A stretch of DNA of 35,269 nucleotides from positions 1 to 35,269 of the IMG/VR virus record IMGVR_UViG_3300020467_000020; one strand, 5' to 3'. The notes under the pieces were generated by a model, which was not told the origin of the DNA, did not search any database, and saw only the letters and a program-made list of their open reading frames with translations. Shown piece by piece: positions 1,450 through 4,345 of this stretch; within the stretch, counting starts at the first letter, position 1, and each line of letters opens with the position of its first letter. Position numbers and translations under genes: made by a program. This stretch comes from a virus.

Positions 1450-1596
1450 ATGTCTAGAAAACATTCCATCACTGAAACTGAATTCAATTCCCTTATTGAT
1501 ACAGCTGTGAAAATCTATCGTCGTTCTGACGTTATGGCTAAATATTCACTGCAAGAAGTCATCAAGATAGGAGCTGAAGAATACTTTAGTGAATAA
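1450..1596 (+). CDS. Small protein, first gene after the origin candidate
   Basis: 48 residues (MSRKHSITETEFN...EYFSE), unrecognised. The sequence looks helical, with a basic N-terminus and KIYRRSD in the middle; it could be a small DNA-binding or inhibitor protein, but no motif proves that. The ATG follows the SD-less leader CACTTAACTTAATCCT. The stop TAA (1594-1596) ends on the first base of the tRNA-like element A. Confidence 0.6.
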   Translation: MSRKHSITETEFNSLIDTAVKIYRRSDVMAKYSLQEVIKIGAEEYFSE

Positions 1597-1636
1597 CTGA
1601 GTGGGTTTTAAGGAGGGTTCAACTCCCTCCCTCAGT
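1596..1636 (+). ncRNA. tRNA-like element A (acceptor/T-arm mini-fold)
   Basis: ACTGAG (1596-1601) pairs with CTCAGT (1631-1636). Inside, GGAGGG (1612-1617) pairs with CCCTCC (1625-1630) around the 7-nt loop TTCAACT, which has the T54-T55-C56-R57-A58 pattern of a tRNA T loop. The two helices stack directly on the 3' side to give 12 bp, the length of a tRNA acceptor plus T stem. The 10 nt between ACTGAG and GGAGGG (TGGGTTTTAA) form no arm, so D and anticodon arms are absent. No CCA is encoded. The fold follows directly on the stop codon of the gene at 1450. Confidence 0.6.
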
Positions 1637-1639
1637 CTT

Positions 1640-1658
1640 GCCGTCCACTGAGGATGGC
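1640..1658 (+). promoter_or_regulatory. Companion hairpin A' with ACTGA loop
   Basis: GCCGTCC (1640-1646) pairs with GGATGGC (1652-1658), with one G-U pair, around the loop ACTGA. It lies 3 nt after element A and 13 nt before the ATG at 1672. The loop plus the next G (ACTGAG) repeats the 5' strand of element A and could pair with CTCAGT instead, so two exclusive folds are possible. Confidence 0.5.
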
Positions 1659-1671
1659 TTACTTCGACATC

Positions 1672-1851
1672 ATGTCTATTCGTTCTCGCTTTGTATCTTC
1701 TCTTCGTTCTGTTGCTAATGCAGTAGAGCGTGACAATACAGGCGATAAGGTTCGCCAGTTGATCTATGACACACGTGTCAAAGTTGCTGGTGTAATCGAA
1801 CCTTCTACTCCCAAGGTTATTAAAGGGGGTGCTGAAGTGTCTGGATCATAG
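1672..1851 (+). CDS. Small basic protein
   Basis: 59 residues, unrecognised: MSIRSRFVSSLRSVANAVER, then a mixed helix and a C-terminal PSTPKVIKGG tail. An in-frame ATG at 1654 would add MAYFDI, but that ATG lies in the 3' strand of hairpin A'. In the two genes behind identical hairpins (2192 and 2424) the ATG comes 12-13 nt after the hairpin, exactly where 1672 falls, so I prefer 1672. The last codons and the TAG stop are part of tRNA-like element B, which constrains the C-terminal sequence. Confidence 0.6.
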   Translation: MSIRSRFVSSLRSVANAVERDNTGDKVRQLIYDTRVKVAGVIEPSTPKVIKGGAEVSGS

Positions 1852-1883
1852 CCAGGTCGGGGGTGCAACTCCCCCACTTCAGA
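1832..1883 (+). ncRNA. tRNA-like element B: D-armless tRNA fold with CAU loop
   Basis: Acceptor CTGAAGT (1832-1838) pairs perfectly with ACTTCAG (1876-1882). After one G, TCTGG (1840-1844) pairs with CCAGG (1852-1856, one U-G) around the 7-nt loop ATCATAG. After TC, GGGGG pairs with CCCCC around the 7-nt loop TGCAACT. A1883 sits at the discriminator position. In tRNA numbering the middle loop has U33, anticodon CAU and A37. Only the D arm is missing and no CCA is encoded. The TAG stop of the upstream gene (1849-1851) lies in the anticodon-like loop. Stem sequences differ entirely from elements A, C and D while the architecture is kept, which is covariation-type support. Charging is not implied. 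Confidence 0.6.
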
Positions 1884-1885
1884 AT

Positions 1886-1906
1886 TACCTACAGCAGAGA
1901 TAGGTA
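1886..1906 (+). promoter_or_regulatory. Companion hairpin B'
   Basis: TACCTA (1886-1891) pairs with TAGGTA (1901-1906) around a 9-nt loop (CAGCAGAGA). It sits 2 nt after the discriminator base of element B and 23 nt before the ATG at 1930. Unlike A', C' and D', its loop is not complementary to the acceptor strand of its element. Confidence 0.4.
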
Positions 1907-1929
1907 CTGCACTCAACATAGGTGACATT

Positions 1930-2100
1930 ATGTTCGCTGTTGAATTTATCGGTACTTCTGGTTCTCCAGAACGTAAAGAGTTTGATACTCGTGATCAAGC
2001 TACTGGTTATGCCGATTCTCTTGCTACACATACACGTGTTTTAAACAGGTGTGTGATTAATGGCGAGAATTGGGAATTACCTCTTTATGGGTACCGCTAA
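1930..2100 (+). CDS. Small protein of unknown function
   Basis: 56 residues (MFAVEFIGTSGSPERKEFDT...WELPLYGYR), unrecognised. The pattern of short beta strands with a helix (FDTRDQATGYADSLATH) suggests a small alpha/beta fold. The ATG follows hairpin B' by 23 nt. The TAA stop is 2 nt before the acceptor strand of element C. Confidence 0.55.
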   Translation: MFAVEFIGTSGSPERKEFDTRDQATGYADSLATHTRVLNRCVINGENWELPLYGYR

Positions 2101-2102
2101 TG

Positions 2103-2156
2103 ACTGAGCTTGGTCAGCTTCGTGCTGTAAAGGAGGGTTCGACTCCCTCCCTCAGT
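2103..2156 (+). ncRNA. tRNA-like element C
   Basis: ACTGAG (2103-2108) pairs with CTCAGT (2151-2156). GGAGGG (2132-2137) pairs with CCCTCC (2145-2150) around the T-loop-like TTCGACT. A middle arm is present as CAGC (2115-2118) / GCTG (2124-2127) with loop TTCGT, in the place of the anticodon arm but without a 7-nt loop. A competing D-arm-like pairing (GCT-TGGTC-AGC, 2108-2118) is possible. It starts 2 nt after the TAA at 2098-2100. Element D is nearly identical outside the middle loop. Confidence 0.6.
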
Positions 2157-2159
2157 ATT

Positions 2160-2178
2160 ACCACTCACTGAGAGTGGT
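2160..2178 (+). promoter_or_regulatory. Companion hairpin C' with ACTGA loop
   Basis: ACCACTC (2160-2166) pairs with GAGTGGT (2172-2178) around ACTGA. It is 3 nt after element C and 13 nt before the ATG at 2192. CTCAGT of element C and ACTGAG of this hairpin are also complementary with a 10-nt gap, the same spacing as in the A and D units. Confidence 0.5.
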
Positions 2179-2191
2179 CTTAATTCAAGTT

Positions 2192-2341
2192 ATGAACTAT
2201 TTCAAACACGTAACTACTGATCTTTGGATTGCATTTGGAATTGGTGCATGTATAGGTGGAGCTATTCGCCTATGGTTATGCCACGGTAGTTGGATGAATT
2301 TTATCAATCCTTTCTACCCATTCAATCTTTTAATCAACTGA
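2192..2341 (+). CDS. Small membrane protein
   Basis: 49 residues with one clear hydrophobic segment (about residues 11-30, LWIAFGIGACIGGAIRLWLC), so a single-span inner-membrane peptide is likely. Function unknown; small early membrane peptides of phages often act on host membrane processes, but nothing here shows that. The TGA stop (2339-2341) lies within the 5' acceptor strand of element D, so the end of the gene and the RNA fold are interlocked. Confidence 0.6.
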   Translation: MNYFKHVTTDLWIAFGIGACIGGAIRLWLCHGSWMNFINPFYPFNLLIN

Positions 2342-2389
2342 GCTTGGTCAGCTTTAGCTGTAATGGAGGGTTCAACTCCCTCCCTCAGT
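2337..2389 (+). ncRNA. tRNA-like element D
   Basis: ACTGAG (2337-2342) pairs with CTCAGT (2384-2389); GGAGGG (2365-2370) with CCCTCC (2378-2383) around TTCAACT; middle arm CAGC (2349-2352) / GCTG (2357-2360) with loop TTTA. It is a close copy of element C with changes only in loops and linkers. Cleavage at the 5' end of the acceptor, as RNase P would do, would remove the upstream stop codon. Confidence 0.6.
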
Positions 2390-2392
2390 ATT

Positions 2393-2411
2393 ACCACTCA
2401 CTGAGAGTGGT
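2393..2411 (+). promoter_or_regulatory. Companion hairpin D' with ACTGA loop
   Basis: ACCACTC (2393-2399) pairs with GAGTGGT (2405-2411) around ACTGA, identical to hairpin C'. The ATG at 2424 follows after 12 nt. Confidence 0.5.
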
Positions 2412-2423
2412 CCCCTTGATCTA

Positions 2424-2762
2424 ATGCCCATGCAAGAGATCCCTATTACTTCTAAGCCTTTCTTTGAAGTAAATCCCTCTGACTTTACACGTTCTGTAGA
2501 AGGTGGATGTATCCGTTATCGTCTCTACTACAAGTATGGTCCTGTTGATATGTCTATTGTTACCATACCTCCTAAAGCAACTGGAATGTATGGAAACCTT
2601 GGACTAGCAGGAGAACCTACTAGGTATGAAGTCATGTATTTCGATCCTCGAATGGAGGAGCCTATGGAATATATGACATGGGACGATATTGCAGGTACTA
2701 TCCGTTGGCTTTTTGCCAAACATCAACAAGAACTTGATAAATTCAGTTTGGTAGAGGCATAG
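2424..2762 (+). CDS. Hypothetical protein with conserved-looking alpha/beta fold
   Basis: 112 residues, unrecognised. The sequence alternates beta-like strands (IRYRLYYKYGPVDMSIVTI) with a C-terminal helix (AGTIRWLFAKHQQELDKFS). Many acidic and aromatic residues, no membrane segment. ATG 2424 is chosen because it lies 12 nt after hairpin D'; a second ATG at 2430 is two codons on. The last three codons and the TAG stop are inside element E. Confidence 0.7.
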   Translation: MPMQEIPITSKPFFEVNPSDFTRSVEGGCIRYRLYYKYGPVDMSIVTIPPKATGMYGNLGLAGEPTRYEVMYFDPRMEEPMEYMTWDDIAGTIRWLFAKHQQELDKFSLVEA

Positions 2763-2795
2763 ACCGCCTAGCCAGGTGCAAGCCCTGGTCTACCA
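2749..2795 (+). ncRNA. tRNA-like element E: D-armless fold with stop codon in the loop
   Basis: TGGTAGA (2749-2755) pairs perfectly with TCTACCA (2789-2795). GGC (2756-2758) pairs with GCC (2766-2768) around the 7-nt loop ATAGACC. CCAGG (2772-2776) pairs with CCTGG (2784-2788) around the T-loop-like TGCAAGC. The TAG stop of the preceding gene (2760-2762) lies in the anticodon-like loop, as in element B. All stems differ in sequence from A-D but keep 7 bp + arm + 5 bp/7-nt T arm. The final CCA of the acceptor strand is paired, not a free tail. Confidence 0.55.
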
Positions 2796-3092: not shown

Positions 3093-3101
3093 TCCCTTCT
3101 C

Positions 3102-3146
3102 AAAGCCCTTCCAGCAATGGTGGGCTTTCTGCAGGGTTCTCCCTGC
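3102..3146 (+). promoter_or_regulatory. Double hairpin between genes, with a direct repeat after it
   Basis: AAAGCCC (3102-3108) pairs with GGGCTTT (3122-3128); then GCAGGG (3131-3136) pairs with CCCTGC (3141-3146) around TTCT. No T run follows, so these are not standard terminators. CTTGTTCTAT is repeated at 3146-3155 and 3161-3170, the second copy ending in the start codon region of the next gene. Confidence 0.45.
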
Positions 3147-3168
3147 TTGTTCTATACCTACTTGTTCT

Positions 3169-3795: not shown

Positions 3796-3808
3796 TTGAT
3801 TCTCTCCT

Positions 3809-3876
3809 GGAGTCATTCCCGAAAGGGTTGGCTCCCTGAGAGGTTCATCCTCTCTGCCTACACGATTGGGATAGGC
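3809..3876 (+). promoter_or_regulatory. Three-hairpin leader
   Basis: GGAG (3809-3812)/CTCC (3832-3835) encloses CCC-GAAA-GGG (3818-3827, a GNRA tetraloop). GAGAGG (3838-3843) pairs with CCTCTC (3849-3854) around TTCAT. GCCTA (3856-3860) pairs with TAGGC (3872-3876). The last resembles hairpin B'. The ATG of the next gene is 24 nt downstream. Confidence 0.45.
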
Positions 3877-3900
3877 TCCAACACAATTCAACTTAATACC

Positions 3901-4263: not shown

Positions 4264-4268
4264 TCGAA

Positions 4269-4319
4269 ACTCCCTTCGGGGAGTCGATGGGAACTAACCC
4301 ACCCATCCTGACGAGACAG
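4269..4319 (+). promoter_or_regulatory. Hairpin cluster with UUCG tetraloop
   Basis: ACTCCC-TTCG-GGGAGT (4269-4284) is a very stable UUCG hairpin. GATGGG (4286-4291) pairs with CCCATC (4302-4307). CTG (4308-4310) can pair with CAG (4317-4319). It follows the stop at 4263 and ends 26 nt before the ATG at 4346. No T run, so RNA stability or spacing is as likely as termination. Confidence 0.45.
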
Positions 4320-4345
4320 GTTATTATCCAATCGCAAATTTAATC

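Follow-up and report, generated by a model that had tools for sequence, protein, structure and literature searches.

The RNA elements described here form one structured family, widespread in phages of marine and freshwater cyanobacteria and placed where many small genes end, and most likely mark the sites where long phage messages are cut or protected. They constitute a new RNA family of the known kind called “tRNA-like processing element”, cleavage being the predicted part of that designation, and their tRNA-like structure can be regarded as practically certain. Five of them (A to E) lie in tandem in the window, i.e., the whole stretch of DNA analysed, a virus record of 35,269 bases; this is considered to be an S-EIV1-group cyanophage, since its DNA polymerase shares 63.5% identity with the homologue of Synechococcus phage S-EIV1. 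More than 250 distinct relatives occur in around 130 viral loci, in addition to those of named isolates.

The preliminary description of this DNA had proposed five folds with an acceptor stem, a T arm and a 7-nt T-loop, and all five were recovered where it had placed them. A search of the window that required only an acceptor helix joined through a linker to a T stem bearing a 7-nt loop gave elements A to E as the five best scorers of the + strand; once T-loops were restricted to T[TG]C[AG]A, a rule that fits all five, they were the only window matches above 18 (scores 18.9-19.5). Shuffling the window 150 times with dinucleotides preserved gave a maximum of 16.8, with none at 17, and the folding energies of A to E were 2.1-2.9 s.d. 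lower than those of shuffles. Besides, a second structure, absent from the preliminary description, begins two or three bases past each of the five.

All five elements are on the + strand. Element A (1596-1637) is the simplest: its acceptor (1596-1601/1631-1636) and T stem (1612-1617/1625-1630) are joined by a bare linker (1602-1611, TGGGTTTTAA) that carries GG and no third arm, its T-loop is TTCAACT (1618-1624) and its discriminator is C 1637. The TAA (1594-1596) of the gene at 1450-1596 overlaps it, and UU and a hairpin (GCCGTCC-ACTGA-GGATGGC) follow at 1638-1658. Element B (1832-1883) has the acceptor CTGAAGT (1832-1838/1876-1882), compensated in a relative as GGCAAGT/ACTTGTC (locus L006), a T stem at 1859-1863/1871-1875, the T-loop TGCAACT (1864-1870) and discriminator A 1883; the stop codon TAG (1849-1851) falls within the linker. 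UU and an H-type pseudoknot come next (1885-1910), the latter built from stem 1 (ACCT 1887-1890/AGGT 1902-1905) and stem 2 (GCAG 1894-1897/CTGC 1907-1910). Elements C and D share a linker arm (CAGC..GCTG) and the same downstream hairpin, ACCACTC-ACTGA-GAGTGGT, after UU (2158-2178 and 2391-2411, respectively). Element C (2103-2157) comprises the acceptor 2103-2108/2151-2156, the T stem 2132-2137/2145-2150, the T-loop TTCGACT (2138-2144) and discriminator A 2157, with the TAA (2098-2100) shortly 5′ of the element; element D (2337-2390) comprises the acceptor 2337-2342/2384-2389, the T stem 2365-2370/2378-2383, the T-loop TTCAACT (2371-2377) and discriminator A 2390, with the TGA (2339-2341) inside the acceptor. 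Finally, element E (2749-2796) has the acceptor TGGTAGA (2749-2755/2789-2795), a linker arm GGC..GCC, the T stem 2772-2776/2784-2788, the T-loop TGCAAGC (2777-2783) and discriminator A 2796; its stop codon TAG (2760-2762) lies in the linker, and a longer stem (GGACT..AGTCC) follows UU at 2797-2823, identical to the one downstream of a relative of this element in locus L031. The claim that D arms are missing therefore holds for the bare linker of A, but not for C, D and E, which fold with a small third arm, nor for B, where the complementary CTGG and CCAG of the linker can form a short one. In the single-sequence MFE of element B, this linker arm competes with the T arm.

The geometry of the fold is that of the upper half of a tRNA. 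Taking only the T-loop and the downstream UURCC as anchors, with any distance of 8-18 allowed and pairing left out of the measurement, the spacing was exactly 13 nt in 235 of the 266 distinct element-plus-junction sequences within the retrieved loci, and 14 nt in another 24. Thirteen nucleotides amount to 12 paired bases and one unpaired discriminator, and thus to the stack and discriminator of a tRNA; the base preceding UURCC is A in 224 of the 266 (84%). In a set of 147 elements chosen by linker and T-loop, with stems not required, pairs 1-11 are formed in 97-100% of the sequences; the figure is 86% for pair 12 and only 17% for pair 13. The point where the linker enters the stack varies (5+7, 6+6 or 7+5) while the total is always 12, and anchored counts were used because a single covariance model is unable to hold such a varying branch point. 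In nearly all relatives the second structure, a hairpin or an H-type pseudoknot, starts after UU, two bases past the discriminator.

Compared with a canonical tRNA, the elements display the acceptor/T stack (7+5 bp in tRNA; here a sum of 12 with a varying branch point), the 7-nt T-loop and the unpaired discriminator, and do not display a full cloverleaf with D, anticodon and T arms. Linkers are mostly 8-23 nt long, which leaves no room for both a D and an anticodon arm. ARAGORN detected no tRNA in the window and a single one, a tRNA-Leu, in 18 related loci (in L162). Linker and T-loop types are furthermore coupled: linkers with a CCG-CGG arm go with TGCRA T-loops by 180 to 1, and GGT-bearing linkers are present in 33 of the 38 elements with TTCRA T-loops. 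This coupling would be explained by a D-loop-like GG touching T-loop positions 55/56; common descent of each class also contributes to it. The elements copy the acceptor/T half of a tRNA, and probably its elbow too.

The stems of A to E had been put forward as covariation evidence; within the window this evidence is weak, as A, C and D have their stems in common, but across relatives it is overwhelming. Compensatory changes in related phages were looked for and appeared in all five helices (acceptor, linker arm, T stem and pseudoknot stems 1 and 2) of an alignment of 31 class II sequences. There, 98.7% of the cells are paired, as against 81.2% after shuffling (0 of 500 shuffles as high) and 34-47% when the alignment is slid by 1-3 columns; both partners have changed in 15 of the 23 pairs, with a covariation score of 0.545 (shuffled, 0.188; slid, at most 0.138). 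The pseudoknot stems are 100% paired, with both-side changes in two of the four pairs of stem 1 and two of the four of stem 2, as expected of an H-type pseudoknot. Since the pattern used to select class II fixed the pseudoknot letters (pyrimidine versus purine), pairing in the tRNA-like part is judged more cleanly from the anchored set, which is 96.1% paired, and 73.4% paired when partners are shuffled. G-U pairs are about nine times commoner than A-C in this set, and it is therefore the sense RNA that folds.

The proposal that these are RNA elements of gene boundaries gained strong support. In the window, the upstream reading frame ends at a stop codon that overlaps or falls within the element at A, B, D and E; at C the stop is just 5′ of it. 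Among the relatives, elements keep to a single strand in 130 of 131 loci, with a median distance of 287 nt between them, and UURCC is followed by an ORF (35 codons or more) in 251 of 259 cases, the ORF start lying at a median of 37 nt downstream. Of the 188 cases with an assignable upstream gene, 113 have the stop codon of that gene starting at element base +2/+3 (0-based), as the TGA of a conserved CTGA in the 5′ acceptor strand. In T7-like cyanophages, elements occur in the early region and directly before the capsid gene; three relatives have an unrelated conserved hairpin near this pre-capsid site in place of the element, which suggests that the site needs some structured boundary.

Searching IMG/VR for element, linker and pseudoknot patterns returned at least well over 100 contigs, and relatives in named phages were reached through class II and T7-like BLAST queries. 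S-EIV1 has elements at two places; S-TIP37 has two early elements and P-SSP7 two at its left end, and each of these two phages has one more preceding the capsid gene, the position also occupied in P-SSP3, P-GSP1 and S-RIP1. S-SBP1, MedDCM-OCT-S45-C4, S-CBP2 and P-SSP10 likewise contain the element. The occurrence of the family in well-studied laboratory phages (P-SSP7, S-TIP37, S-EIV1) makes it directly testable there. When a window element was compared with phages by BLAST, every match was a short stretch resembling a T arm, and some of these were parts of tmRNA and tRNA-Leu; beyond cyanophages, too, BLAST gave only short T-arm-like stretches, some within tmRNA or tRNA genes. The sole match to the pseudoknot pattern in bacterial genomes, in an Oscillospiraceae (L200), was attributed to chance, there being no tRNA-like element upstream of it.

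No Rfam family reaches threshold at the elements, either at gathering or at relaxed thresholds, and the elements are undescribed in the open-access literature searched, in agreement with the original impression that no phage system like this had been described. tmRNA (RF00023) was discarded: its tRNA-like domain resembles the elements in having an acceptor, a T arm and a reduced D region, but the match is weak, covers the T arm only and stays at 14.1 bits against a 47-bit cut-off. Unlike tmRNA, the elements have no tag reading frame or pseudoknots between the acceptor halves and no encoded CCA, and they act in cis, between genes. The tymovirus-type tRNA-like structure (Tymo_tRNA-like, RF00233) is also a viral tRNA mimic located 3′ of a message and reproducing the elbow; it was rejected as well (16.9 versus 40 bits, E = 1.3), as the elements contain no acceptor pseudoknot, and they differ further in lacking an anticodon arm and in being internal to the transcript rather than at the genome end. 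With no Rfam threshold reached and neither of these two structures accommodating them, the elements are regarded as a new family, large, strongly covarying and absent from Rfam.

Other systems share single aspects. The RNase III sites of the T7 early region are structured dividers of early phage mRNA as well, but are long hairpins without tRNA geometry; the mascRNA of MALAT1 is a tRNA mimic defining an mRNA-like end, but is a single eukaryotic element. As far as function can be compared, the closest analogue is the plant mitochondrial t-elements, tRNA-like structures at mRNA ends that are cut by RNase P and RNase Z, CCA-tailed and uncharged (PMC11658184). The phage elements join the same three features, namely position at an mRNA boundary, sense orientation and a tRNA acceptor/T fold. 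However, t-elements occur in organelles, in small numbers per genome and as complete tRNA-like relics, whereas the phage elements lack anticodon arms, stand in tandem at stop codons and are fused to a hairpin or pseudoknot.

Processing by a tRNA enzyme, on one side of the element or the other, is the likely function, and we infer cleavage from the fold and its position. Within it, the explanation we consider best, and somewhat favour, is that host tRNA-maturation enzymes would read the elements at gene boundaries in the phage transcript and that RNase Z would cut immediately 3′ of the discriminator, dividing the transcript. The upstream mRNA would be left with a tRNA-like 3′ terminus and its stop codon retained, possibly CCA-tailed and resistant to 3′ exonucleases; the downstream mRNA would start with a 5′-monophosphate end, UU and then the stem or pseudoknot, which would protect this end against RNase E or RNase J. 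Enzyme, cut and effect on stability are all predictions of this scheme. As the stop codon mostly lies within the 5′ strand of the acceptor, an event on the 3′ side is favoured over 5′ cleavage by RNase P, and with the stop at +2/+3 a cut past the discriminator retains it. The tRNA elbow is read by RNase Z, RNase P and CCA enzymes (PMC4810234), and RNase P, RNase Z and RNase J are present in cyanobacteria (PMC10989914). A CC or CCA after the discriminator inhibits B. subtilis RNase Z (PMC7479834), whereas the base in that place is U here. Against cleavage by RNase Z, the B. subtilis enzyme, unlike two archaeal ones, left arm-less pre-tRNAs unprocessed (PMC7479834). Besides, a ribosome at the stop codon would open the acceptor stem, a conserved fold is equally what a translational or protein-binding role would call for, and the full tRNA ruler might stem from tRNA descent and not from present use. 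An enzyme-decoy role, contemplated at the outset, found nothing in its favour, the fixed orientation and the coupling to stop codons being cis features.

More tentatively, an entire group of cyanophages may split its polycistronic transcripts with one reusable module protecting both new ends, a tRNA mimic that would recruit RNase Z (and perhaps CCA addition) joined to a ready-made 5′ pseudoknot or hairpin cap. If true, this would be tRNA-style mRNA punctuation in viruses of bacteria, it would give cyanophages a means of setting and guarding the ends of their messages in hosts with RNase E and RNase J, and it would supply a compact two-sided mRNA-end module for cyanobacterial work.

Punctuation could also be the work of RNase P, cutting 5′ of the acceptor, either alone or together with RNase Z on the 3′ side, so that a small tRNA-like RNA is excised, as in mitochondrial transcripts. 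RNase P is known to use the 12-bp acceptor/T stack as its ruler, and the bacterial enzyme accepts acceptor-T minihelices, both of which fit the elements. It also reads the elbow (PMC4810234), but a 5′ cut would strip the upstream gene of its stop codon wherever this lies at +2/+3 (113 of 188), and we consider excision by RNase P unlikely. Marginally less probable still is an element that works without cleavage, its fold and pseudoknot serving as the binding site of a protein, from phage or host, or of the ribosome, so that termination is coupled to the next initiation. The tight coupling to stop codons and the next start some 37 nt past UURCC would suit such a role, for which there is precedent in the H-type pseudoknots of 5′ leaders that are known to serve as sites of translational repression (e.g., that of T4 gene 32); it is the pattern of conservation that speaks against it, stem sequences varying freely while the determinants of tRNA enzymes (12 bp, T-loop, unpaired discriminator) are fixed.

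That the elements are mainly recombination sites shuffling small genes, by attC-like single-strand folds or plain homology, is improbable. One gene does appear in differing neighbourhoods (e.g., that at 1450-1596, also in L008), and another is followed by an element in L007 and not in L006 or L022; yet the tolerance of G-U rather than A-C points to folding as sense RNA, recombination has no need of a T-loop, discriminator or stop codon, and elements also occur singly ahead of the capsid gene. Gene shuffling may instead be a by-product of the elements. As for chance, or debris of decayed and functionless tRNA genes, its probability is negligible: as a general explanation it is refuted by the shuffle test, the covariation in all helices and the constant geometry in 235 of 266 elements. 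In P-SSP7, the copy located around 975-1046 does resemble, with its long linker, a decayed whole tRNA, which makes an origin of the family from tRNA genes plausible.

Past the five tRNA-like elements (acceptor and T-arm folds at gene ends), the genes next in line in the window are followed by strongly folded intergenic stretches (3093-3168, 3796-3900 and 4264-4345; e.g., GCAGGGTTCTCCCTGC-TTGTTCTATACC), with folding z-scores of -3.2 for 3093-3168 and -4.2 for 3796-3900. Close copies of these stretches are found in four related viral loci (L007, L008, L021 and L022); tRNA geometry is absent from them, and their appearance suggests a boundary element of a second type. In S-EIV1, two similar intergenic stretches, CCTGGGCRTCCATA...AAGTCCCAGG (L012, 11075-11125 and 11770-11835), represent another repeated structured element.

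Other structures also occur close to the capsid gene of T7-like cyanophages. S-RIP2 (L213), MedDCM-OCT-S04-C24 (L216) and P-SSP10 (L210) carry a different hairpin upstream of this gene, whose loop (CACCTCAGAGTCGGA) is conserved while its stem varies, near the site occupied by the tRNA-like element in other members of the group, and this hairpin might be its functional replacement. In S-TIP37 and P-SSP7, the tRNA-like element of the capsid region is preceded at a short distance by a glutamine-II riboswitch (RF01704; L207, 13336-13389; L208, 8523-8576). At its left end, P-SSP7 also contains a pair of tRNA-like elements, one on each side of an unannotated ORF at ~709-966 (L205, 602-1046). With its 41-nt linker, the second of the pair looks like a complete tRNA that has decayed, which may hint at how the family arose.

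Directly ahead of the first tRNA-like element of the window, a long non-coding stretch (1040-1450) combines DnaA-box-like TTTTCCACAG motifs with blocks, such as AAATAGGGAACAAAATTTCCTGA, that are found again in L006, L007, L021 and L022; this stretch is a likely replication origin. Behind that element, the ORF start called mechanically at ATG 1654 falls within the hairpin on its 3' side, and ATG 1672 is the more likely start, judging from the L008 gene behind the same leader. The order of the small genes between elements differs among relatives (window 1450-1596; L008, L006, L007 and L022), and the same genes occur with or without a tRNA-like element depending on the relative, as if they were shuffled as units of gene plus element.
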